Below are positions 8,351 to 20,770 of a stretch of DNA of 32,117 bases, piece after piece (position 1 is the stretch's first letter; each line of letters begins with the position of its first letter). The notes under the pieces are model-generated. The model was not told the origin of the DNA. It searched no databases and saw only the letters and a program-made list of their open reading frames with translations. The translations under genes were made by a program, and so were the position numbers. The stretch spans positions 1 to 32,117 of the forward strand of contig JAGCAH010000064.1 of assembly GCA_017652805.1 (NCBI GenBank), read 5' to 3'. This DNA comes from Thermoguttaceae bacterium (GTDB lineage Bacteria; Planctomycetota; Planctomycetia; Pirellulales; Thermoguttaceae).

Positions 8351-9721
8351 TTACTCCTCTTCTTTCATGATGGTGTTGAGCATTGTCCGAAGAGTGGTCG
8401 TATAGTCGTTTTTGCCGAGATCGACCAGCGTGCAGAGCGCGACGTCTTCTTCGTCAAGTTCCAGAGCGCCGAGCTTTTCGGCATTGTCGATATCGCCGAC
8501 TTCGAGCGCTTTGAACAGGTAGAGGGGGATAATATCGAGCGGCATCACCTTTTCGAGCGCGTCGTTCGGGAAAACCGCCCGATGACCGCCGTGCAGCGCG
8601 GTGGTCATTTTATACGCCCAACGGGGGAGATACCACGAGGCGACGGTTCGCGCCATCGAGAACTTGCGGAACCCGGGCAGGGTCCAGGCGAAGAGTTCGC
8701 GCGGGTTTCCGTCACCGACCGCCGAAACCTGGTTCACGTAGGGGCCGAGCGCGCACAGACCGTTGTCTTCAATAGCGCGGCCGCAAAGAACGCTCCCCGA
8801 AATGACCCGGACCTCGCCCGAAACGAGTTCCCCTTCGGTCAGCTCTTTTAAGCAGGCGCCGACGCGCGTGCGCAGAAGGCGGGGGTTCTTGACCATCGGG
8901 CCGGAAAGGGCGACGATCCGCTCGGTCGGATACCGACCGGTCGTAAAGAGGGCGCCGATCGCGATCACGTCCTGATAGCCGATCGTCCAGACGGTCTTGC
9001 CCAGCCCGACCGGATCGAGGAAATGGATATGTGTCCCCGCCAGACCCGCCGGGTGCGGACCGGTGACGTTGACCGTCTCGACCTTGGCGATTCCTTCTTC
9101 GGGGACGTCGGCTTCGGGCGCCTTGCAGACCCAAAGGGTGTTGCCGCAGATCCGGCTGAGAACTTTCAGGCCGTTTCGGAAATCGTCGGCCCGTTCGGCA
9201 ATGATCAGCGCCGGGTCGGGCGCGCCGGGATTGGTGTCGATCGCGGTCACGAAAAGGGAATGGGGCGTGGCGCCGAGTTTCGGAATGACGCTGAACGGAC
9301 GGGTCCGAAGCGCGGTCCAGAGTCCCGAAGCGGCAAGGATTTCGCGGACCTTTTCTTCCGGGAGATCGTCAAGCGCTTCGGGCGCGAACTTTTCGAATTC
9401 GACCGACTTGTCAGCGGCGGCGCCTTCGTCCAGCGCGATCATGACGCTGCGGAACGCGCGCTTTTCACCACGGCAGACCTTTTCGACCACGCCGGCTCCG
9501 GGAGAGGTGAACTTGACGCCGGGATTCTTTTTGTCTTCAAAAAGAGTCTCCCCCGCCAGGACGTGCTGACCTTCCTCAACGGCGAGACTCGGCCGAAGCG
9601 CGACATAGTCGGGGCCGGTCACGGCGACGTGCCTGATACTTTTAATGTTCGGATCGATCCGCTGCTGCGGCGCGCCGGCGAGCGCGAGATCCAGGCCTTT
9701 GGTGATTTCAAGATATTTCAC
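8351..9721 (-). CDS. nqrA: Na+-translocating NADH:quinone reductase subunit A
   Basis: Peripheral cytoplasmic subunit of NQR associated with the quinone-binding region; no cofactor motif is expected. It has 456 aa and begins with the typical KGLDLALAGAPQQRI. It then shows the family pattern GETLFEDKKNPGVKFTSPGAG, SVIPKLGATPHSLFVTAIDTNP, and in the middle FLDPVGLGKTVWTIGYQDVIAIG. The start is a GTG at 9721, fixed by the N-terminal family sequence; a GGAG lies 13 nt upstream and is not ideal. It is the first gene of nqrABCDEF, with a leader of roughly 130 nt if the promoter proposed near 9857-9886 is right. Confidence 0.96.
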   Translation of the reverse strand: MKYLEITKGLDLALAGAPQQRIDPNIKSIRHVAVTGPDYVALRPSLAVEEGQHVLAGETLFEDKKNPGVKFTSPGAGVVEKVCRGEKRAFRSVMIALDEGAAADKSVEFEKFAPEALDDLPEEKVREILAASGLWTALRTRPFSVIPKLGATPHSLFVTAIDTNPGAPDPALIIAERADDFRNGLKVLSRICGNTLWVCKAPEADVPEEGIAKVETVNVTGPHPAGLAGTHIHFLDPVGLGKTVWTIGYQDVIAIGALFTTGRYPTERIVALSGPMVKNPRLLRTRVGACLKELTEGELVSGEVRVISGSVLCGRAIEDNGLCALGPYVNQVSAVGDGNPRELFAWTLPGFRKFSMARTVASWYLPRWAYKMTTALHGGHRAVFPNDALEKVMPLDIIPLYLFKALEVGDIDNAEKLGALELDEEDVALCTLVDLGKNDYTTTLRTMLNTIMKEEE

Positions 9722-9754
9722 GATCGAACGCCTGCTCCACTCTTTTGGTGAGAC

Positions 9755-9777
9755 GGGACCTCCCCTTCGTCAGTCCC
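9755..9777 (-). other. Small hairpin in the nqr leader
   Basis: GGGAC (9755-9759) can pair with GTCCC (9773-9777). On the minus strand the loop contains a purine-rich GGGGAG. It lies in the presumed 5' leader of nqrA, 34 nt before the GTG. It does not match a riboswitch that I recognise. It may only be chance pairing in GC-rich DNA. Confidence 0.25.
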
Positions 9778-9856
9778 TCAACAGATAGACGGCACCGGCC
9801 CCCTCGTCCGCGGGCGCGGAACAGTATAAGCCGGACCGGTTAGCTTAAGACCCCCC

Positions 9857-9894
9857 ATATTGGACTAGTTTAATATAAAATTTCAAAAAGTCCA
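9857..9894 (-). promoter_or_regulatory. Probable nqr promoter with flanking inverted repeat
   Basis: In an AT-rich island the minus strand has TTGAAA (9881-9886) and CAATAT (9857-9862) with 18 nt between. TGGACT (9861-9866) and AGTCCA (9889-9894) form an inverted repeat around this core, which could be an operator. A second -10-like TATACT lies at 9823-9828 without a good -35, so the exact start is uncertain. Confidence 0.45.
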
Positions 9895-9903
9895 GACGCG
9901 CGG

Positions 9904-9932
9904 TTTACAACGGGAGAAAATTCGGGGATAAT
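9904..9932 (+). promoter_or_regulatory. Sigma-70-type promoter for the metallophosphoesterase gene
   Basis: TTTACA (9904-9909) and GATAAT (9927-9932) are separated by exactly 17 nt. The expected transcript starts near 9939 and has a leader of about 57 nt. A strong AAGGAG ribosome site (9984-9989) lies 6 nt before the ATG at 9996. It is divergent from the nqr promoter. Confidence 0.65.
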
Positions 9933-9995
9933 CGAAAAGTCGGCGAAAGATCCCCATTTCCCCCCGCGTAAAACCCATGGTTCAAGGAGTTTTCC

Positions 9996-11270
9996 ATGAA
10001 AAAAACCGCGATTCTTTCCTTTCTGCTTCTCGCGCTGGCCGTTCCGCTTTTCGCCGCCGTGCCGAAAGCCGAACTCTTAAACGAGCCCCTCCATACGCCG
10101 ATCGCCGCCGATCAGACGGAGCTTCCGCTCAACGAAAAAATCGGGGACTACTTCAACGTGCGGAGCGTCGCCGGCGATGAAATCGTCGCGCAGTTCGGAA
10201 TCCAGCATCCCGCCGAAGGGGGCGTCACCGTCCGCCTGTTCGAGGGGGAACGCGAGCTGGCCTCGGCCGCCGCTCCGGGAAAGTTCGGACGGATCCTCTT
10301 TACCGGCCTGACCCCGGAGACCGAATATACCCTGACCGCCTCGTGCGAGGCGTGGAAATCGGCGGAAGGCCTGAAGATCAACAATCTGGATGGGGACGAG
10401 GCGTTCGCCTCGCTCACCCGCCGCTGCCGAACCGCCCCGTCGCCGCGCGGGGAACTCCTGGTGAAAGCCGCGCTTGTCTCCGACACCCACGTTTCGATCA
10501 TCACAGCTCCTTCGGGACGCCTGCACTGCGTCAGCCGGGAAATATTCACCGACGTCTGCCGCGACGCCGCCGCGCGGGGCTGTACCCTGATGATCAACTG
10601 CGGCGACGTGACCGACGGGACGCACGACGAAGAGTTCGAGACGGCCGAAAAGGCGATGGCCGAGTTCCCGGGAAAGATCCTCCTTGTTCCGGGAAACCAC
10701 GATATCAAGAAAGACGAGGAGCTCGTCAAGTGGCACGCGGCGTTCGGCGCGGCGGCCTGTTACGACGAGGCGGGAGGCGTCCAGTTCGTTGGCCTGAACA
10801 CCGCCGACGGCCGGTTGAACAAGCCGGAAAACCTCGAAGTGATCGAAAAACTCGATCCCGCGAAACCGGCGATCATCTTTTCGCACTTCCAGCTGGTCAA
10901 AGACGAACATCTCAACGATGAGAACAAGGCAATCAAGGACGCCGACCTTTGCACCGCGCAGCTCGAAAAGATCGCCTCGTCGAAAAGCGTGATTTATGTG
11001 GGACACAAGAACGTGGCGGCGGCCGCCTATCTGGGAAACGTCGTGCAGATCAATATGCCGCAGACGACGCAGTTTCCGATGGGGTGGCTCGAGGCGGAAA
11101 TCCGAACCGACGGCGTCTACCAGAGGTTCGTTTTCAGCTCCACCGCCGACCGCGAAGAACTCTCGCGCGTTTTGGGAGGGTGCTTTCTCGGGACGATCGG
11201 CTACCGCGACTGGCGCTCGGTCGAAATCTGGAACCGTTTCATCCCGTGGCCGGAATCGGGCGAGAAGTGA
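9996..11270 (+). CDS. Secreted calcineurin-like metallophosphoesterase with N-terminal Fn3-like domain
   Basis: Predicted exported phosphoesterase with two metal ions; the substrate is unknown. Residues 1-20 are a clear Sec signal peptide (KK, a hydrophobic core, then FAA). Residues about 50-145 resemble the beta-sandwich domain found before the catalytic domain of purple-acid-phosphatase-like enzymes (VRLFEGERE, ILFTGLTPETEYTLTASCEA). The catalytic domain has all main metal-binding blocks: SDTH (162-165), NCGDVTDG (201-208), PGNHD (232-236), SHFQ (296-299) and GHKN (336-339). The last is usually GHxH; here the second metal-binding His is Asn339, which may alter one metal site. It is monocistronic, and its stop is only 3 nt from the stop of the convergent deoxyribosyltransferase-like gene. 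Confidence 0.85.
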   Translation: MKKTAILSFLLLALAVPLFAAVPKAELLNEPLHTPIAADQTELPLNEKIGDYFNVRSVAGDEIVAQFGIQHPAEGGVTVRLFEGERELASAAAPGKFGRILFTGLTPETEYTLTASCEAWKSAEGLKINNLDGDEAFASLTRRCRTAPSPRGELLVKAALVSDTHVSIITAPSGRLHCVSREIFTDVCRDAAARGCTLMINCGDVTDGTHDEEFETAEKAMAEFPGKILLVPGNHDIKKDEELVKWHAAFGAAACYDEAGGVQFVGLNTADGRLNKPENLEVIEKLDPAKPAIIFSHFQLVKDEHLNDENKAIKDADLCTAQLEKIASSKSVIYVGHKNVAAAAYLGNVVQINMPQTTQFPMGWLEAEIRTDGVYQRFVFSSTADREELSRVLGGCFLGTIGYRDWRSVEIWNRFIPWPESGEK

Positions 11271-11273
11271 GTG

Positions 11274-11720
11274 TCACTCTTTTCCGTGCTCGGCCAAAAG
11301 GGCCGCAAGCTCGCCGTTTTTCACCGAGGCCTTGAACGATTCCATGTCGGGAAAGACCCGGTGCGAAAGGTAGCGGATGACCCAGTTGCGGGTCATTTCG
11401 GTGATCGAGACGATGACCGCGCCGTTCTTCCACGCTTCCCACATCTCCACGGCGGTTCCCATTGAAGCCTCGGGAACGTAGGCGATCAGAAGATCGATCT
11501 CGGTACCGCACATCCTGTTGTGACGCAGGAACGTTTCCTTCCCCTTTTCGTTGCCGTAGTTGACCGAGTCCTGATTCTTGGCGAACGGGTCGTAGACCGA
11601 AAGCTCGGGCATCGTTTCGCGGAAGAAGTCGGTCAGCTCGGTGCGGTAGTCCTGACTGTGAAGCTGTTTTTCGGTACGCGAACCCTGCATAATCCCGGCG
11701 ATAAAAACGCGAACGGTCAT
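11274..11720 (-). CDS. Nucleoside 2-deoxyribosyltransferase-like protein
   Basis: Small protein (148 aa) of the nucleoside 2-deoxyribosyltransferase fold. Relatives move a deoxyribose between bases or cleave N-glycosidic bonds. Visible features are the N-terminal strand-loop VFIAGIMQGS (5-14), the middle YDPF (43-46), the acidic strand TEIDLLIAYVPEASMGTAVEMWEA (73-96), in which Asp76 and Glu92 align with the usual substrate-binding Asp and nucleophilic Glu, and a following VIVSIT strand. The C-terminal part (about 107-130) has MTRNWVIRYLSHRVF, seen in several uncharacterised members. It is the last gene of the seven-gene minus run, 28 nt after queC, so a link to deazaguanine or nucleoside metabolism is possible but not shown. 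The substrate cannot be told from sequence. The ribosome site is mediocre (AGGA about 13 nt away). Confidence 0.7.
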   Translation of the reverse strand: MTVRVFIAGIMQGSRTEKQLHSQDYRTELTDFFRETMPELSVYDPFAKNQDSVNYGNEKGKETFLRHNRMCGTEIDLLIAYVPEASMGTAVEMWEAWKNGAVIVSITEMTRNWVIRYLSHRVFPDMESFKASVKNGELAALLAEHGKE

Positions 11721-11748: not shown

Positions 11749-12492
11749 TTACGGTTTCTTTACGACGTAGCGCGTCGGGTCGGGAAGATGCGCCTCCTCG
11801 AAACCGGCGCGGCGGAGGCGGCACGCTTCGCACTCGCCGCACGCCCGGCCGTCGGCGTCTGGCGTGTAGCAGGTGACCGTTTCGGCGTAATCGACCCCCA
11901 GGCCGGTGCCGAGACAGATGATCTCGGCTTTCGACATTTTGGCCAGCGGGGTAACGACCGAGAACGCGCGTTTCCCCTCTTTGGCGCCCTCGACCCCCGC
12001 GCGGGTCGCCAGGTTGGCAAGACGCTCGAACGTCTCGATATATTCGGTCCGGCAGTCGGGATACCCGCTGTAATCGATCTGGTTCACGCCGATCCAGAGT
12101 TCCGAGGCGCCGCGCGTTTCGGCATAGGCCAGGGCCAGCGACAGAAAGACCGTGTTGCGCGCCGGCACGTACGAAGTGGGGATCGACTCGCCGATATGCT
12201 CGAGCGAAACCCGGCGGTCGACGGGAATCGACGCGTCGGTCAGGGAACTCCCCCCGAAAAGGGAAAGGTCGAGGGAAAGAACGATATGCTCGGCGACGTT
12301 CCACCGCGCCGCCGCCCGCCGGGCGGCCTCCAGTTCGCAGCGGTGCCGCTGATGATAGTCGAAGGTGAGCGCGTAAATCTCGCGCCCCCGCGACGAGGCC
12401 AGAGCGCAGAGGGTGGTCGAGTCGAGCCCCCCCGAAAGAAGGAGAACCGCCTTCGTCTTTTCGGCGGCGTCGTTTTCCGTGTGATTCGTCAT
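11749..12492 (-). CDS. queC: 7-cyano-7-deazaguanine (preQ0) synthase
   Basis: Converts 7-carboxy-7-deazaguanine plus ammonia to preQ0 using ATP, a step toward queuosine in tRNA (or deazaguanine in DNA). The PP-loop SGGLDS (20-25) is intact, followed by the family pattern ALTFDYHQRHRCELEAA, SYVPARNTVFLSLALAYAE and GVNQIDYSGYPDCR. The C-terminal zinc site is Cys208, Cys218, Cys221 and Cys224. The length of 247 aa is somewhat more than the typical 220-235. It follows prfB by 22 nt and precedes the deoxyribosyltransferase-like gene. No queD, queE or queF is present in the window, so the rest of the pathway must be elsewhere. Confidence 0.95.
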   Translation of the reverse strand: MTNHTENDAAEKTKAVLLLSGGLDSTTLCALASSRGREIYALTFDYHQRHRCELEAARRAAARWNVAEHIVLSLDLSLFGGSSLTDASIPVDRRVSLEHIGESIPTSYVPARNTVFLSLALAYAETRGASELWIGVNQIDYSGYPDCRTEYIETFERLANLATRAGVEGAKEGKRAFSVVTPLAKMSKAEIICLGTGLGVDYAETVTCYTPDADGRACGECEACRLRRAGFEEAHLPDPTRYVVKKP

Positions 12493-12514: not shown

Positions 12515-13618
12515 TCAGTCGGTCTTTACGCGCCAGCGGAGGTATTCGTCCATAAACGGCTGAATATTCCCGTTAAGCACGTCGTGAAAGTTCGAGGACT
12601 GGTATCCGGTCCGCGAATCCTTCACCCGCTGTTCGGGGTGGAGAAAGTAATTGCGGATCTGCGAACCGAACCCGACTTTCGCCATATTCTTGTATTTCTC
12701 GCTCATCGCCTGCTCGCGCTTTTCCTCTTCGCGCTGGATCAGACGCGCCTTAAGCATTTTGAGCGCCATCGCGCGGTTTTTATGCTGGCTCCGCTCGTTC
12801 TGACACTGCACCACCGTCCCGGTGGGGATATGCGTCAGGCGGATGGCGCTCGAGGTTTTATTGACGTGCTGACCTCCCGCGCCGCTCGACCGGAAGACGT
12901 CTTCGCGGATATCCTCGTCACGCAGCTCGACGTGGATGGAATCGTCGATATCGGGGTTCACGTCGACCGCCGCGAAACTGGTCATTCGCTTCGCCTCGGA
13001 GTTGAACGGCGAAATGCGGACCAGCCGGTGCGTGCCGATCTCCCCTTTCATGTAGCCGTAGGCCATCGGCCCCTTGATGATGAAGCTGGCGCTGTTGATC
13101 CCCGCCTCCTCATTGTCCTGACGGTCGAGAATCTCGACCGTGTAGCCCGCGCTCTGCGACCAGTTGATATACATTCGCAGGAGCATTTCGGCCCAGTCGT
13201 TCGCGTCGGTGCCGCCGTCGCGCGCGTTGATCGAGACGATCGCGTTGCCGACGTCGAACGGCCCGTTCAGAAGCGCCGAGGTCTCGAGCCGCTCCATCTG
13301 CTTTTCGGCGCCGGCGAGTTTCGGCGGGATCTCGGCGGCGAGCGAGTCGTCTTCGCTCCCCAGTTCGACCAGGACGTCCAATTCGTCGAGCGCCGCGGTG
13401 ATGTCGTCGATCGGCTTGACCACCGCCTTGTACCCCTTCAGACGCGCCACTGTCGCCTGCGACTTTTCGGCGTCGTCCCAGAAGCCCGGGGCAGCCATCT
13501 CTTTTTCGGTCTCGGCGATCAGTTTGAGCTTCTCGTCATAATCGAGCGAATCGTGCAGCTTGGCGATCCCGGTACGAATCGCGTCAATCCGGTCGGTCAG
13601 TTCTTTTTCAATCGGCAT
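12515..13618 (-). CDS. prfB: Peptide chain release factor 2, without programmed frameshift
   Basis: Release factor 2 recognises UAA and UGA stop codons and triggers peptide release. The SPF anticodon-like tripeptide is at 203-205 and the catalytic GGQ at 248-250 (SSGAGGQHVNKTSSAIR context). At 367 aa it matches the usual length. In many bacteria prfB needs a +1 frameshift at a CUU-UGA-C site between Leu25 and Asp26. Here the same residues SLDYD (24-28) are encoded by an uninterrupted CTC-GAT in one frame (13541-13546), so no autoregulatory frameshift exists. The ATG at 13618 gives the family N-terminus. The frame stays open much further upstream, across argC, but that extension has no family character. 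It lies 44 nt after argC. Confidence 0.96.
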   Translation of the reverse strand: MPIEKELTDRIDAIRTGIAKLHDSLDYDEKLKLIAETEKEMAAPGFWDDAEKSQATVARLKGYKAVVKPIDDITAALDELDVLVELGSEDDSLAAEIPPKLAGAEKQMERLETSALLNGPFDVGNAIVSINARDGGTDANDWAEMLLRMYINWSQSAGYTVEILDRQDNEEAGINSASFIIKGPMAYGYMKGEIGTHRLVRISPFNSEAKRMTSFAAVDVNPDIDDSIHVELRDEDIREDVFRSSGAGGQHVNKTSSAIRLTHIPTGTVVQCQNERSQHKNRAMALKMLKARLIQREEEKREQAMSEKYKNMAKVGFGSQIRNYFLHPEQRVKDSRTGYQSSNFHDVLNGNIQPFMDEYLRWRVKTD

Positions 13619-13662: not shown

Positions 13663-14673
13663 TTAGAGAAGCGCCGTCGTCTCGGGGTACCCGAAGAGGA
13701 TGTTGAAGTTCTGAACCGCGGCGCCCGAAGCGCCTTTGATCAGGTTGTCGATCACCGAGATCGTCAGAACCCGGTCGTCGACGATCCGGGCGGTCATGTG
13801 ACAGCGGTTTGTGTAAATCACGTCTTTCGTCGAGGGGAGCGCCTCGACCACCTGAACGAACGGCTCGTCTTTGTAGAAGGCGCCCCACGCGTCGAGGACG
13901 TCGTCCTGCGTGACGCCGGCGCGGGCAATTTTCGCATAGCAGACGGTCAGGATCCCGCGGTCCATCGGGGTCAGGTGGGGGGTAAAGATCACCTTGACCG
14001 CTTTGCCGCTCCCGTCGCCGATGACCTGCTCGATTTCGGGCGTGTGGCGGTGAGTGCCGACGGCGTAAGCCGAAATTGCCTCGTTGCATTCGGGATAGAG
14101 GTTCTTGAGTGAAGGTTTCCGTCCCGCGCCGCTTACGCCGCTTTTGGCGTCGATGATAATATCGCTCGTCTCAACCAGTCCCGCCTTGACCAGAGGGGTA
14201 AGCGGCAGGATCGCCGAGGTCGAATAGCAACCGGGGTTGGCGACCAGCGGCGCGCCTTTGATCGCTTCACGGAAAATTTCGGGCAGGCCGTACGGCACCG
14301 ACGGGAGGCGGTCGGCGTCGGGATGCACCACGTTGTACCACTTTTCATAGACCGCGACGTCGTTAAACCGGTAGTCGGCGCCGAAGTCGATCACCTTCGC
14401 CCCCCCGGCCAGAAGTTCCGGGACAACCGCCGCCGTGGCGGTGTGCGGCAGACAGCTGAACACACAGTCGGCGCGATGCGCGACCTCAGTGGGGGTGAGG
14501 TTTTCGAGTGGCAGTGAAAGCCGGCCGGTCAGAGAGGGATGGACCTGGTCGACCGGGCGGTTTTCCTGCCGACTGGTCAGCGCGACAATCTCCGCCTCCG
14601 GATGACGCAGGAGGAGCTTCATCAGTTCGAGTGCCGTATAGCCTGTTGCTCCGAGAATCGCGATCTTTGTCAT
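13663..14673 (-). CDS. argC: N-acetyl-gamma-glutamyl-phosphate reductase
   Basis: Third step of arginine synthesis: NADPH-dependent reduction of N-acetylglutamyl phosphate to the semialdehyde. The N-terminal Rossmann motif is ILGATGYTALEL (6-17). The catalytic cysteine is Cys149 in NPGCYST. Other family blocks are DFGADYRF (96-103), SGVSGAGRKPS, GTHRHTPEI with the conserved His, and FTPHLTPMDRGILTVCY. The length of 336 aa is typical. It follows the epimerase stop after only 3 nt and precedes prfB, within a run of otherwise unrelated functions. No other arginine genes are in the window. Confidence 0.97.
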   Translation of the reverse strand: MTKIAILGATGYTALELMKLLLRHPEAEIVALTSRQENRPVDQVHPSLTGRLSLPLENLTPTEVAHRADCVFSCLPHTATAAVVPELLAGGAKVIDFGADYRFNDVAVYEKWYNVVHPDADRLPSVPYGLPEIFREAIKGAPLVANPGCYSTSAILPLTPLVKAGLVETSDIIIDAKSGVSGAGRKPSLKNLYPECNEAISAYAVGTHRHTPEIEQVIGDGSGKAVKVIFTPHLTPMDRGILTVCYAKIARAGVTQDDVLDAWGAFYKDEPFVQVVEALPSTKDVIYTNRCHMTARIVDDRVLTISVIDNLIKGASGAAVQNFNILFGYPETTALL

Positions 14674-14676
14674 TTT

Positions 14677-15657
14677 TCAATCCTTCGTTTTTTGTTTATC
14701 GTCGATCACCTGACGAATGATATCGTCAATCGTATAGACCGGTTTCCAGCCGATCAGCCGCCGCGCGCGTTCCAGCGAGGGGACGCGGCGGTGCATATCC
14801 TCGAAATCGGGTCCGAAGACCTCTTCGTAACTCTTCAGCGCGACGGGCGAGTTCGAACCGGTTAGCTCGACCACCCGCCGGGCCAGGTCGCCGATGGCGA
14901 TCTCGTCGTCGGATCCAAGGTTCATCACCTTCCCTGCCGCTTCGGGAGTGCGCGAGACGCGGATCAGCCCTTCGACCACGTCGAGAACCGAACAGAAGCA
15001 GCGCTTCTGCGTCCCGTCGCCATGTACCACGAGCGGGTCTCCGGCCAGCGCGGCGGCGACAAAACGGGGGAGGACCATTCCGTACTTCCCCGTCTGACGC
15101 GCGCCGACCGTGTTAAAGAGGCGCACGATGAAAACGGGAAGCGCGGTCTCTTTATGGTGCGCCAGCAGATAGAACTCGTCGAGCATCTTCGCCGAGGCGT
15201 AGGCCCAGCGCGGCTTGACCGTCGCGCCGATCACCACCGGGTCCTCTTCCCGGAACGGAATCCGCTCCGAGATGCCGTAGACCTCGCTCGTCGAGGTCAG
15301 CAGAATCGGCCTGCGGTACTTCGAGCAGACGTCGGTCAGCTTTTCAGTCGGCTCGACGATCCGGCGGATCGTCTCGACCGGACGTTCGACGACCAGACGT
15401 ACGCCGACAGCGCTCGCCAGGTGAAAGACAAAATCGACCGGTGCGACTTCGCTTTCCAGGAGGTCGGCGTTGTTCATATCGGCGATCACCGCGCGGAAGT
15501 TCGGGTTCCCTTCCAGCGGGGCGATGTTCCGCCACGCGCCGGTCGAAAGGTCGTCGATCACCGTCACGCGGTGCCCCTCGCCCAAAAGGCGCGCGCTCAG
15601 GTGGGAGCCGACGAAACCGGCGCCGCCGGTGATCAGATAACGGAGTTTCGCGGTCAT
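14677..15657 (-). CDS. NAD-dependent sugar-nucleotide epimerase/dehydratase coupled to btaB
   Basis: Extended short-chain dehydrogenase (326 aa) expected to act on a UDP- or dTDP-sugar. Rossmann motif GGAGFVGSH (11-19), VIDDLSTG (33-40) for NAD binding, TSTSEVYG (121-128) and catalytic Tyr153/Lys157 in YASAK. The later blocks VRLFNTVGARQTGKYGMV, GDGTQKRCFCSVLDVVEGL and VMNLGSDDEIAIGDLA fit UDP-glucuronate decarboxylase or 4-epimerase relatives; the exact reaction is not decided. The start is the ATG at 15657, which overlaps the btaB stop (ATGA). The frame is open 20 codons further upstream but that part has no family character. The coupling suggests the sugar product is needed with the betaine lipid, for example for a glycosylated head group or envelope glycan; this is inference. 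Confidence 0.88.
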   Translation of the reverse strand: MTAKLRYLITGGAGFVGSHLSARLLGEGHRVTVIDDLSTGAWRNIAPLEGNPNFRAVIADMNNADLLESEVAPVDFVFHLASAVGVRLVVERPVETIRRIVEPTEKLTDVCSKYRRPILLTSTSEVYGISERIPFREEDPVVIGATVKPRWAYASAKMLDEFYLLAHHKETALPVFIVRLFNTVGARQTGKYGMVLPRFVAAALAGDPLVVHGDGTQKRCFCSVLDVVEGLIRVSRTPEAAGKVMNLGSDDEIAIGDLARRVVELTGSNSPVALKSYEEVFGPDFEDMHRRVPSLERARRLIGWKPVYTIDDIIRQVIDDKQKTKD

Positions 15658-16421
15658 TCGTTCGCGGGAGTTTCGGTCGGCTTTCTTCCGACGTAGATGT
15701 AATACGGCACCTTCCACCAGAAGAGGGGGAAGTAGGGAACCTTCAGCTTTTCGTCGGCGAACAGCTCGGTGTTAAACCGATAGTCCAGGTAGGGGTAATG
15801 ATCCGACGAAAGGAAGACGTTGTCGCACGAAAACCACGCGGGCCAGAAGCTGCGCGTGGCGAACCCCTGCGCCTCCTGCCGCTGGTGCGGGAACTTCCGG
15901 GCGACGTAGAAGTCGACGACCCCGATCAGCCCTCCCGGTTTTAAGATCGAAAGGGCATGGTCGATCGCCCGGAACCAGTCGGGAATCATCGTCAGCGAAT
16001 AGGAGAAGGTCACGACATCGGCTTTCTCCTTCGGGGGAACCCACGAGGTGGCGTCCGCCTCGACCGTCTCGACGTTCGTCCAGCCGGCGTTTTTGATCCG
16101 CTCGTCGGCGATATCCAAAAGCGGTTTGGCCAGATCGAGGATATAGACCTTTTTCAGTTCCGAAAGGCGGTCGCCGAACCCCGCCATATTCGAGCCGGTT
16201 CCGCCCCCCATATCGACCCAGACCGCGTCCTTCAAACTCGGCGTCCGGCTTTGGAGTTCTTCCCAGAGCCGCTCGCGTCCTTTCAGGAGGCGTTTGCGGA
16301 AGCTGTCGTAGTCGCCGGCCTGCGCTTCGTAGAAGCGGTTGAGCCAATCGGCGTGCCCCCGCCCCGCACGGGGACGGAAAACCAGGTGCCAAACTACGTT
16401 CAGGTCGTTCAGGAGTGCCAT
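15654..16421 (-). CDS. btaB: SAM-dependent methyltransferase, probable betaine lipid synthase BtaB
   Basis: Expected to methylate diacylglycerylhomoserine three times to the betaine lipid DGTS, using S-adenosylmethionine. It has 255 aa: an N-terminal helical part (WLNRFYEAQAGDYDSFRKRLLKGRERLW, about 26-53) typical of BtaB-like proteins. SAM motif I is VWVDMGGGTGSN (67-78), followed by acidic VYILDLAKPLL, VEADATSWVPP and VTFSYSLTMIPDW. The C-terminal FWWKVPYYIYVGRK pattern also fits BtaB. The name depends mainly on its place directly after btaA (41 nt), the standard btaAB pair. Its stop overlaps the epimerase start by 4 nt. Alternative: another lipid or small-molecule methyltransferase. Confidence 0.82.
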   Translation of the reverse strand: MALLNDLNVVWHLVFRPRAGRGHADWLNRFYEAQAGDYDSFRKRLLKGRERLWEELQSRTPSLKDAVWVDMGGGTGSNMAGFGDRLSELKKVYILDLAKPLLDIADERIKNAGWTNVETVEADATSWVPPKEKADVVTFSYSLTMIPDWFRAIDHALSILKPGGLIGVVDFYVARKFPHQRQEAQGFATRSFWPAWFSCDNVFLSSDHYPYLDYRFNTELFADEKLKVPYFPLFWWKVPYYIYVGRKPTETPANE

Positions 16422-16462: not shown

Positions 16463-17656
16463 CTAGCCGGTGATCAGGTCCGCGATGTAGAAACTGCCGT
16501 AGGTGTGAACGCGATCCTCTTTGTGAAGTTCGGCGGCGCGATCCCGGTTCAGCCGAAGAAGATCGCCGAGCCGCTCGGTTTTCCCGCCGCGGGTGATCGG
16601 GATCGAGTCGAGGTAATCGGTCGCCAGCCCGCCGCTGCGCCAGATCGCGCGGGCCGAAGGGGCCGCCTTGGCGAAGATGGCGTTCCATTCCGCCACCAGG
16701 ACGTCGTAGAGGCGGTCGCACAGCCAGTCCATATGGTCGAGGAGGACGAAACGCGAGATCGTCCCGTCAAACCGGCGGAGGAACCGGTCGACCGTATCGG
16801 TATGGACGTGAACCTTCTCGATCAGCCCCTCTTTCAGGGCGTAGAAGTTATGCTCTTGAAGGTACTCGGGACAGCACTCCTTGGTATACGACCCGGTCGC
16901 GTAAAGGCGCCAGAAGTAGTTGTCGCGAACCGACAGACGGCCGAAGACCTCGTCGAGCGCCTCTTCGGCGAACTGCGAGACATGCCCGCCGTAGGTCCGT
17001 TCGATCTGGAGACGCTGGACCCGCGGCACACCCAGGAGCGCCAGAACCGCGTCGCGGTCGATCATGAACCGAACCATGGGGGAAAAGAGCCGCTTTTTGA
17101 TTTCGGGCCAGATCTGCCGCTGATCGTCGACCGACCCCGCGTTAAGGAGGCGGACGATATCGCCGCGCACCCCGCGCCGATCGAGATAGGCGTTCATCTT
17201 CCGAGCGAAGAAACCGCTTGTTCCCCGAAAGAAGAAGGGATACTTCCCGTCGAAGTAGGACGCGATCTTTCGATCCCAGAACTTCTGTGCCGGGGGGGTA
17301 AGACGATCCCGGAGCCGGGTGCGGTACAACTCGGTCACGCCCTTATAGCGTCCCTGACCGAAGAGCTGAAAGAAGGTCTCGAACTCGAGCTCTTTGATCC
17401 CGGCGATCTTCAGCTCCAACAGGGCGTTCTGCCGGTAATTGACGTCGACGGAATGAACCGACCGGGGGGCGTCCAGCGCGTACGAAAGGGCGTTGCACCC
17501 GGCCGAGGTGATGACCAGGACGTCGTCGTCCGAACCGAGACGGAGAGCCTGCTTGTCGATCCGGGGATCTTCCCAGCATGTGTTGTAGACGAGGTTGTTC
17601 CGATGAACGAGATTGAACAACTTCGTGCTGAGGCATTTGCACAGACAGCAGGACAT
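16463..17656 (-). CDS. btaA: S-adenosylmethionine:diacylglycerol 3-amino-3-carboxypropyl transferase (BtaA, DUF3419)
   Basis: Transfers the 3-amino-3-carboxypropyl group of SAM to diacylglycerol, the first step to the phosphorus-free betaine lipid DGTS; acts at the membrane surface. It has 397 aa. The hallmark VYNTCWEDPRIDKQAL (23-38) and ITSAGCNALSYALDAP (49-64, SAM-binding) are followed by VDVNYRQNALLELKIA. The C-terminal half has FVLLDHMDWL, also typical of the family. The first ten residues are MSCCLCKCLS, with four cysteines that are not part of the usual BtaA start. The ATG at 17656 is preceded by AAAGGA 12 nt upstream, which lies inside a perfect dyad. No in-frame alternative start lies closer to that ribosome site. 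It is the first gene of the seven-gene run. Confidence 0.9.
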   Translation of the reverse strand: MSCCLCKCLSTKLFNLVHRNNLVYNTCWEDPRIDKQALRLGSDDDVLVITSAGCNALSYALDAPRSVHSVDVNYRQNALLELKIAGIKELEFETFFQLFGQGRYKGVTELYRTRLRDRLTPPAQKFWDRKIASYFDGKYPFFFRGTSGFFARKMNAYLDRRGVRGDIVRLLNAGSVDDQRQIWPEIKKRLFSPMVRFMIDRDAVLALLGVPRVQRLQIERTYGGHVSQFAEEALDEVFGRLSVRDNYFWRLYATGSYTKECCPEYLQEHNFYALKEGLIEKVHVHTDTVDRFLRRFDGTISRFVLLDHMDWLCDRLYDVLVAEWNAIFAKAAPSARAIWRSGGLATDYLDSIPITRGGKTERLGDLLRLNRDRAAELHKEDRVHTYGSFYIADLITG

Positions 17657-17668
17657 ACGGCGGCAAGA

Positions 17669-17685
17669 TCCTTTCCCGGAAAGGA
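17669..17685 (-). promoter_or_regulatory. Shine-Dalgarno-containing dyad in the btaA leader
   Basis: TCCTTTCC and GGAAAGGA are perfect inverted arms of 8 nt around one central base. As RNA it can fold as a 7-bp stem with a 3-nt loop. The 3' arm contains AAAGGA, the only good ribosome site for btaA, so folding would hide it. It could work as a translational switch or as a DNA operator; which one is not decided by sequence. Confidence 0.5.
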
Positions 17686-17780
17686 GCCTAAGAGGCGCTT
17701 TTCGGCAGGTTTCAAGGGAGGAAAGACCACAAAAACGACCGGAAGGGGGAATCTTCCCGACCTTCCGACTCTTCACTATT

Positions 17781-17809
17781 ATTATAGTCCGTTTTACTCG
17801 ATGAGTAAA
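17781..17809 (-). promoter_or_regulatory. Strong sigma-70 promoter for the bta run, with palindrome over the -35 box
   Basis: On the minus strand TTTACT (17804-17809) and a perfect TATAAT (17781-17786) are separated by 17 nt. The -35 box is part of the palindrome TTTACTC-GAT-GAGTAAA (17793-17809, 7-nt arms, 3-nt centre), a likely repressor or activator site. No match to a PhoB box was seen. The leader to btaA is about 118 nt. Confidence 0.72.
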
Positions 17810-19344: not shown

Positions 19345-19406
19345 AGGATCCTTTGTTCGCGAAACGGCGGAAAACGCGGGCCGACGCCCGCCCCACCCTA
19401 TCATAT

Positions 19407-19434
19407 ATCATAGACGCTCGGGGAAAAATGACAA
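19407..19434 (-). promoter_or_regulatory. Sigma-70-type promoter for the sigma-54 regulator gene
   Basis: On the minus strand TTGTCA (19429-19434) and TATGAT (19407-19412) lie 16 nt apart. The transcript would begin near 19400 with a leader of about 56 nt before the ATG at 19344. It is divergent from the GH5 promoter. Confidence 0.58.
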
Positions 19435-19525
19435 GGTCCGCCCCGCTCGGCGGCGGGATCGTCCGCGCTCGATCTTTCCCTTCGTTCGGCTCTCGCGATA
19501 TGAAAACGCTTCACGCGCCAAACCC

Positions 19526-19554
19526 TTGAATTCGGCGCGGGGAGCATTTAAACT
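19526..19554 (+). promoter_or_regulatory. Sigma-70-type promoter for the GH5/esterase pair
   Basis: TTGAAT (19526-19531) and TAAACT (19549-19554) are separated by 17 nt. The predicted start near 19561 leaves a leader of about 124 nt. The spacer is GC-rich in its first half, which may make expression dependent on an activator. Confidence 0.55.
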
Positions 19555-19651
19555 GGTTAGGACGCGTCCCGAACTCCCCGGGACTCGGCGGCCGGGCCGG
19601 AAAGCGCCCTCCAACCGCCGTCAATTTTCAACAGCCACCCGATCGTATTGA

Positions 19652-19667
19652 GCCGCGGACCCGCGGC
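19652..19667 (+). other. GC-rich inverted repeat just before the GH5 ribosome site
   Basis: GCCGCGG (19652-19658) and CCGCGGC (19661-19667) are perfect 7-nt arms with a 2-nt centre, ending 3 nt before the AAGGA ribosome site (19670-19674). As RNA, about 6 bp could pair and would limit access to the start. It could also be an operator. No function is proven. Confidence 0.35.
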
Positions 19668-19684
19668 GGAAGGATTCAGAACCG

Positions 19685-20770
19685 ATGCATTTTCGAAAAA
19701 CAGTGTCATCCGGTATTTTTCTCCTTGTGCTCCTGTTTGTTTCGGTCTCGTCTGCCGACGAGCCGCCCCGCTACCGCGGCGCGATGATCGATCAGGCGAC
19801 CTTCGACGAGGAAAGTCTGAAAGTCTTCGCGGAGGAGTGGAACGGAAACCTGGTCCGATGGCAGCTGAACTTCCACAGCCCGACATCGGAAGAATTCTTC
19901 GATTATCTCGTCAAGGCGTGCGACAAATTCGACGAGATGATTCCCCTCCTCCGGAAATACGGAGTCAGGGCCTGCCTCGATCTCCATTCCGAACCGGGCG
20001 GATTCAACGAGGATTACATCATGAGGATTTTCATCGACGAGCGGTTCAGCAACATGTTCGTCGACATCTGGGAATATCTCGCCAAGCGCTACGCCGGCGA
20101 GAAGGTCATCTGGGGCTACGACCTGATGAACGAACCGGTCGACGGGATTCCGTCCGCGGGCGGTTACCATATCGCCTGGCACGATCTGGCCGAACGGGCC
20201 GCCCGGAAAATCCGCGAAATCGATCCCGAGGCCGTGATCATTTACGAACCCGCAAACTACGCGTCTCCTCTCAGTGCGTTTAACGACCTGGAGCCGCTCG
20301 GCCTGCCGAACGTCGTTTACAGCTGCCATGAGTATGATCCCCTCGCGTTCACGCACCAGAACGTGATGAAGGATTTCACCGAGCCGTGCGTCTATCCGGG
20401 TGAAATCGGCGGAGAGTACTGGGACAAAGAGCGGCTCCGGCAGTCGGTCGCCCATGTCCGCGCGTTCCAACTCAAGTACGGCGTGCCGATTTTCGTGGGG
20501 GAATTCAGCGCGGTTCGATGGGCGCCGGAAAACAGCGCGTATAACTACCTGAAGGACGCCATCGAGATTTTTGAGGAATACGGCTGGGACTGGACCTACC
20601 ACGCGTTCCGCGAATCGGATTTGTGGAGCGTCGAATACCCGAGCGACAGGAACGCCGCCGTCCCGGCGTCGGAACCGACCGACCGGGAGCTTCTCCTGCG
20701 CCGTTACTTCGAAAAGAACGTCCGCGAAAAACAGACATCGGATGACAACCCACTTTCGACAGAACAATGA
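19685..20770 (+). CDS. Secreted glycoside hydrolase family 5-like (cellulase superfamily)
   Basis: Predicted exported retaining glycosidase of clan A (361 aa); likely substrate beta-glucan or mannan type, but not fixed by sequence. A signal peptide covers residues 1-24 (FRK, hydrophobic core, VSSA). The TIM barrel shows ACLDLHSEPGG (96-106), the acid/base Glu150 in GYDLMNEP (144-151), YSCHEYDPL (212-220) with the conserved His-Glu-Tyr, the nucleophile Glu273 in FVGEFSAVRW (270-279), and the late-barrel WDWTYHAFRE. The ribosome site AAGGA is 10 nt before the ATG. Its stop overlaps the start of the esterase by 4 nt (ATGA), so the two are translationally coupled. Both catalytic glutamates are present. 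Confidence 0.88.
   Translation: MHFRKTVSSGIFLLVLLFVSVSSADEPPRYRGAMIDQATFDEESLKVFAEEWNGNLVRWQLNFHSPTSEEFFDYLVKACDKFDEMIPLLRKYGVRACLDLHSEPGGFNEDYIMRIFIDERFSNMFVDIWEYLAKRYAGEKVIWGYDLMNEPVDGIPSAGGYHIAWHDLAERAARKIREIDPEAVIIYEPANYASPLSAFNDLEPLGLPNVVYSCHEYDPLAFTHQNVMKDFTEPCVYPGEIGGEYWDKERLRQSVAHVRAFQLKYGVPIFVGEFSAVRWAPENSAYNYLKDAIEIFEEYGWDWTYHAFRESDLWSVEYPSDRNAAVPASEPTDRELLLRRYFEKNVREKQTSDDNPLSTEQ

Follow-up and report, generated by a model that had tools for sequence, protein, structure and literature searches.

A lineage-specific leader as a candidate for translational tuning of btaA in uncultured Thermoguttaceae planctomycetes

The window analyzed here is a stretch of 32,117 nucleotides, contig C269 of a draft Thermoguttaceae genome (2.68 Mb, 87% complete), and carries a run of seven genes on the reverse strand headed by btaA. 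The btaA gene (16463–17656) encodes an S-adenosylmethionine:diacylglycerol 3-amino-3-carboxypropyl transferase of the DUF3419 family, and the Pfam match (PF11899, E = 4e-111) spans residues 13–392, the full length of the product. It is followed by an N-methyltransferase gene (15654–16421), assigned as btaB from methyltransferase family matches and gene order, and by two genes assigned from family matches: an NAD-dependent epimerase/dehydratase (14677–15657), the start of which overlaps the btaB stop, and an argC-like semialdehyde dehydrogenase (13663–14673). Downstream of these are prfB, encoding peptide chain release factor 2 (12515–13618; family match and synteny), a queC-like gene (11749–12492) with an SGGLDS motif in its translation and conserved synteny, for which we keep the name used in a preliminary description of this locus, and a conserved last gene of 148 amino acids (11274–11720). 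The last product resembles nucleoside 2-deoxyribosyltransferases by eye, gave no match in a Pfam search, and is 86–96% identical in four congeners. All seven genes are separated by short gaps or overlap. The inclusion of argC, prfB and queC in the run, as originally described, was confirmed, and the order of the seven genes is the same in five species (the window's own and the congeners G002, G003, G004 and G006). No conserved promoter was seen in alignments of the 60 bases ahead of each later gene, which makes a single transcript for the seven genes plausible.

Two of the coding sequences have features of their own. Programmed frameshifting in prfB is found in many bacteria; here, prfB (12515–13618) can be read from its ATG in a single frame and lacks the in-frame stop at which such a frameshift would occur. 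The N terminus of BtaA in this genus (17620–17656) is cysteine rich (MSCC-x-C-K-C) and lies outside the PF11899 match, which begins at residue 13.

In a public genome collection, the closest relatives of this btaA belonged to uncultured planctomycetes of the RUG series, which we take to be rumen metagenome bins, and the more distant ones to Thermoguttaceae and Planctomycetaceae. The genus was sampled with seven genomes (G000–G006; assemblies 73–91% complete). btaA was present in the five genomes that share the gene order and was not found in the other two. G003 is a deeper congener, with a BtaA 66% identical; the leader was compared in a close set of four species: the window's own, G002, G004 and G006.

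The btaA promoter proposed from the first inspection of the sequence proved to be real. It is of the sigma-70 type (17781–17809, reverse strand), with a −35 box TTTACT (17809–17804), a 17-nucleotide spacer and a −10 box TATAAT (17786–17781), and was supported by scanning and alignment: the TTTACT-17-TATAAT pattern was found once, against an expectation of 0.2. The −10 box is invariant in five congeners, and the −35 box reads TTTACT, TTTACC, TTTACT and TTTGCC in the four close species. The four-way alignment also revealed conserved flanks, (C)CTGTTT and, at the end of the spacer, AAACGGA. This is an ordinary, consensus-like promoter of housekeeping appearance that is probably on all the time.

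A palindrome with perfect 7-nucleotide arms, TTTACTC-ATC-GAGTAAA (17793–17809), does lie exactly on the −35 box, as reported. Its arms match at 7/7 positions in the window's own species, 5/7 in G004, 5/7 in G006 and 3/7 in G002; only the promoter boxes and their immediate flanks are kept in the relatives. In the whole window, palindromes of this kind (arms of at least 7, spacer 0–4) numbered 23 compared with 21.2 in shuffled sequence, and a single one is therefore unremarkable; within the 215-nucleotide intergenic gap, the presence of two independent palindromes exceeds expectation (3 counted registers versus 0.13). A genome scan, proposed at the outset as a way to find related sites, gave no regulon-like set: no second site with at most one mismatch was found in the window's genome, no congener had any site at that threshold, and sites with at most two mismatches numbered 2 in the window's genome, compared with 4 for a reversed control pattern. 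A search for a regulon in this genome and 59 related ones likewise returned nothing above the control. We therefore regard the palindrome as a species-specific extension of the −35 box that most likely arose by chance.

Two other intergenic regions of the window also contain conserved blocks. The gap between the genes for a sigma-54 response regulator and a cellulase (19404–19685) is nearly identical in the window's species and G004 and strongly different in G002 and G006, and contains a conserved TTGTCA...TATGAT-like promoter block. A sigma-54 promoter for the neighboring NtrC-type regulator was considered and rejected because the sites had at best 4 mismatches and fell in differing places. 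The divergent region between the genes at 8351 and 9996 (9721–9996) has long blocks, GTTTACAACGGG and AAAAAGTCC among them, that three species have in common, and a second, TTTACA-17-GATAAT-like promoter; conservation of these blocks is comparable to or above that of the btaA leader.

Betaine lipids are membrane lipids that contain no phosphorus, and their synthesis in bacteria is generally treated as an answer to phosphate starvation. No Pho box had been seen at btaA, and our scan agreed: the best site in each of the four upstream regions had 6 or more mismatches of 14, and its position was not conserved. The missing box is accounted for by the genus apparently having neither PhoB nor Pst. 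No full-length PhoB was found in the seven congeners (assemblies 73–91% complete), in which the best matches scored approximately 90 bits and covered the receiver domain only; most other genera sampled gave full-length matches of approximately 150–256 bits. PstB was also missing from all seven, as it is from some other genera of the family, and a search of the window's genome for PhoU gave no more than a weak match. Assembly gaps are an unlikely reason for the same absence in seven successive genomes. The Pho system appears to have been lost in this rumen planctomycete genus; a PhoB-like protein is present in most of the other genera that were sampled from the family and order. PhoB regulates both btaA and btaB in Sinorhizobium (PMC3972451). 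The BtaA and BtaB enzyme families and the adjacency of the two genes are shared with Sinorhizobium meliloti, whereas the locus studied here has no Pho box, a housekeeping-looking promoter, and a genus background without full-length PhoB or PstB. Replacement of a lost phosphatidylethanolamine pathway by betaine lipid was ruled out, since each of the seven congeners has phosphatidylserine decarboxylase.

The predicted transcript has a leader of approximately 118 nucleotides. At its 5′ end, a stem-loop is predicted (CGGAAGG-tc-GGGA-AGAT-TCCC-CCTTCCG; 17740–17767, reverse strand) that occurs in all four close species with a different sequence in each. Its folding energy was better than that of shuffled sequences in three of the four (z of −2.3, −0.6, −2.0 and −3.1), and z was +0.6 in the deeper congener. 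A T-rich stretch lies beyond it (17735–17731). The stem-loop was rejected as a terminator or attenuator: a scan for terminator-like structures gave no more hits than chance, the T-run does not adjoin the stem but lies a few bases from it and is not in all species, and the upstream room is too small for an antiterminator arm. Three further elements follow on the reverse strand. A pyrimidine tract, TCTTTCCTCCC (17716–17726), is not conserved. A block with the sequence AAACCTGCCG in the window's species and the consensus AAACYTGCCG in the four (17703–17712) has 9 of its 10 columns invariant, compared with 32% for the remaining leader. The upstream arm of helix P2 (17694–17705), an anti-anti-SD element, reads CCGAAAAGCGCC in the window's species and CCGGAAAGAGCC in G002. 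A small upstream reading frame was rejected as the reason for the AAACYTGCCG block, since frames and starts vary among species by eye, and an indel directly ahead of the ATG in G002, also judged by eye, speaks for a non-coding leader.

The Shine-Dalgarno (SD) sequence of btaA, GAAAGGA (17669–17675, reverse strand), lies 12 nucleotides ahead of the ATG (17656) and forms the 3′ arm of a dyad at 17669–17685. This dyad had been described as having 8-nucleotide arms, and the inverted repeat TCCTTTCC-G-GGAAAGGA (17685–17669) is indeed real, but because an RNA loop needs 3 nucleotides, the RNA stem has only 7 bp, closed by a CGG loop. Its other arm, the anti-SD sequence CTTTCCG (17677–17683, reverse strand), has two alternative partners, the SD or the upstream arm. 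The dyad is identical at 14 of 15 positions in the four sister species; conservation in relatives, the test named for both dyads at the outset, therefore held for this one and failed for the −35 palindrome. The SD and the anti-SD arm are each invariant at 7/7 positions; the corresponding values are 51% for fourfold-degenerate positions in btaA and 32% for the remainder of the leader. This conservation of the anti-SD arm, together with that of the upstream block, appears to exceed what the SD alone would explain, a conclusion of moderate strength given the four species compared. The dyad core CTTTCCGSGAAAGGA occurs once per genome, only at btaA, in the four close species, and is absent from G003 and from the two genomes of the genus that gave no btaA. 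Elsewhere, only 1 of 99 other btaA loci had an SD hairpin of at least 6 pairs (start codons in this set are approximate, and it includes some duplicates). A covariance model built from the 3′ half of the leader matched only the four btaA leaders (E of approximately 1e-15 or better); the next-best matches were at chance level, with the three inspected appearing to lie within coding sequence, and further copies of the leader were rejected on this basis.

The SD hairpin and the upstream helix are mutually exclusive because they use a common anti-SD arm, and either can form. When folded in isolation, the SD hairpin had energies of −6.9, −6.9, −2.9 and −5.5 kcal/mol in the four species and the upstream helix −10.8, −18.8, −14.3 and −19.4 kcal/mol; the upstream helix was the stronger in all four, and when it forms, the dyad arm is not available to the SD. 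Compared with shuffled sequences, the upstream-helix segment was clearly better in two species and weakly better in the other two. In helix P2, 92.5% of cells are paired, with four one-sided consistent changes; a single pair is disrupted in the copy of the window's species. Compensatory changes, which alignment had been expected to reveal in the SD dyad, were not seen: among the four sequences, no pair was changed on both sides in either the SD hairpin or the upstream helix. Whole-leader fold energies were mostly no better than those of shuffled sequences (z of −1.8 to +0.5). In the full leader of the window's own species, most bases of the SD had the pyrimidine tract as their predicted partner (probability of approximately 0.75), and pairing with the dyad arm reached only 0.12–0.15. 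The species differ in their predicted default fold because the upstream helix is weakened in this copy and its SD is expected to pair mainly with the tract. Folding of the leader thus did not support the dyad, as the main fold, in the role first given to it of hiding the only good ribosome site.

Taken together, we favor, with a little better than even confidence, a reading in which a constitutive sigma-70-type promoter and a chance palindrome precede a lineage-specific leader that tunes btaA translation. The seven-gene run headed by btaA would be read from an ordinary promoter that is probably always on. The leader would be a real element of this lineage, made up of the 5′ stem-loop, the AAACYTGCCG block, and the CTTTCCG arm common to two exclusive hairpins, of which the stronger upstream one frees the SD and the weaker one hides it. 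Judging from predicted energies, the SD-freeing hairpin is probably the default state in the relatives. Such a leader would most likely set a fixed level of btaA translation through the stability of the 5′ end and the accessibility of the SD, and an effect on btaA translation is probable. E. coli ompA is an example of a 5′ stabilizing stem-loop, and the btaA hairpin resembles it in lying a few nucleotides from the predicted transcript start and in keeping its structure despite sequence change; by comparison with ompA, it is a candidate stabilizer, and in one of the four species it is no better than shuffled sequence.

The alternative that survives best, although we consider it distinctly less probable, is that the leader merely changes slowly and the SD dyad is coincidental, with only the promoter and the SD being functional. 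The lack of compensatory changes, the unremarkable whole-leader energies, the small sample, and the fact that conservation of the SD itself is expected are all consistent with this. Against it, the anti-SD arm and the AAACYTGCCG block are far more conserved than the leader elsewhere (7/7 and 9/10 versus 32%), and the ribosome-site regions of the operon's later genes are not conserved.

It is unlikely that the leader acts as a translational switch, in which a ligand, a protein or temperature would move the anti-SD arm onto the SD and turn btaA translation off. The suggestion of RNA-level control is borne out in part: in the four species, conservation of the SD dyad core and of the upstream block is well above that of the leader as a whole, and formation of a competing anti-anti-SD helix is feasible. 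Two exclusive helices with one invariant arm, the conservation of an AAACYTGCCG block that has no other role, and an element unique to btaA would fit a switch, for which S-adenosylmethionine or a BtaA/BtaB product would be candidate ligands. The likeness to the expression platform of translational riboswitches is that one arm pairs with either the SD or an upstream arm, in mutually exclusive fashion; unlike those riboswitches, this leader has no recognized aptamer, covariation or known ligand and serves one gene in one lineage. Compensatory changes and a second copy are absent, no Rfam match was obtained even at E up to 10, the leader is short with no conserved multi-helix aptamer visible, the upstream arm is damaged in the window's own copy, and the element is confined to one small lineage. 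The favored fold in the relatives also leaves the SD open, and because the energy gaps between the isolated helices are approximately 4 to 14 kcal/mol, the SD-hiding state should be rare. Nothing here requires a true switch, whether it would respond to a ligand, to a protein like CsrA or to temperature. More doubtful still is the broader proposal that a lineage-specific RNA switch of rumen planctomycetes senses a pathway metabolite or membrane state, controls betaine-lipid translation, and has replaced phosphate control in a genus without a Pho system. In the literature collection searched, no paper contained both betaine lipid and riboswitch.

Binding of a protein such as CsrA to GGA motifs near the SD, where it would block ribosomes, is very unlikely. 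CsrA is present in all seven congeners, the SD holds AAGGA, and a second GGA is found in the upstream arm of two of the three relatives; however, the window's own leader has lost that second GGA (CCGAAAAG), the GGA of the SD sits in the stem rather than the loop of the SD hairpin, and the presence of CsrA says little because all 20 of the 20 genomes examined from the order have it. Least probable of all is the dedicated transcription factor first proposed to bind the −35 palindrome and repress the operon: perfect arms placed exactly on the −35 box suit such a factor, but the palindrome is private to one species, stands alone in its genome with fewer two-mismatch relatives than the control, and is of a size found at chance frequency in the window.

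On the preferred reading of a constitutive promoter followed by a tuning leader, the leader offers a compact and concrete candidate for an element that tunes btaA translation. Because btaA has been kept in five of seven genomes of a genus in which neither full-length PhoB nor PstB was found, and lies behind a housekeeping-type promoter, our data suggest that betaine lipid is a standing membrane component of these bacteria in their gut habitat.
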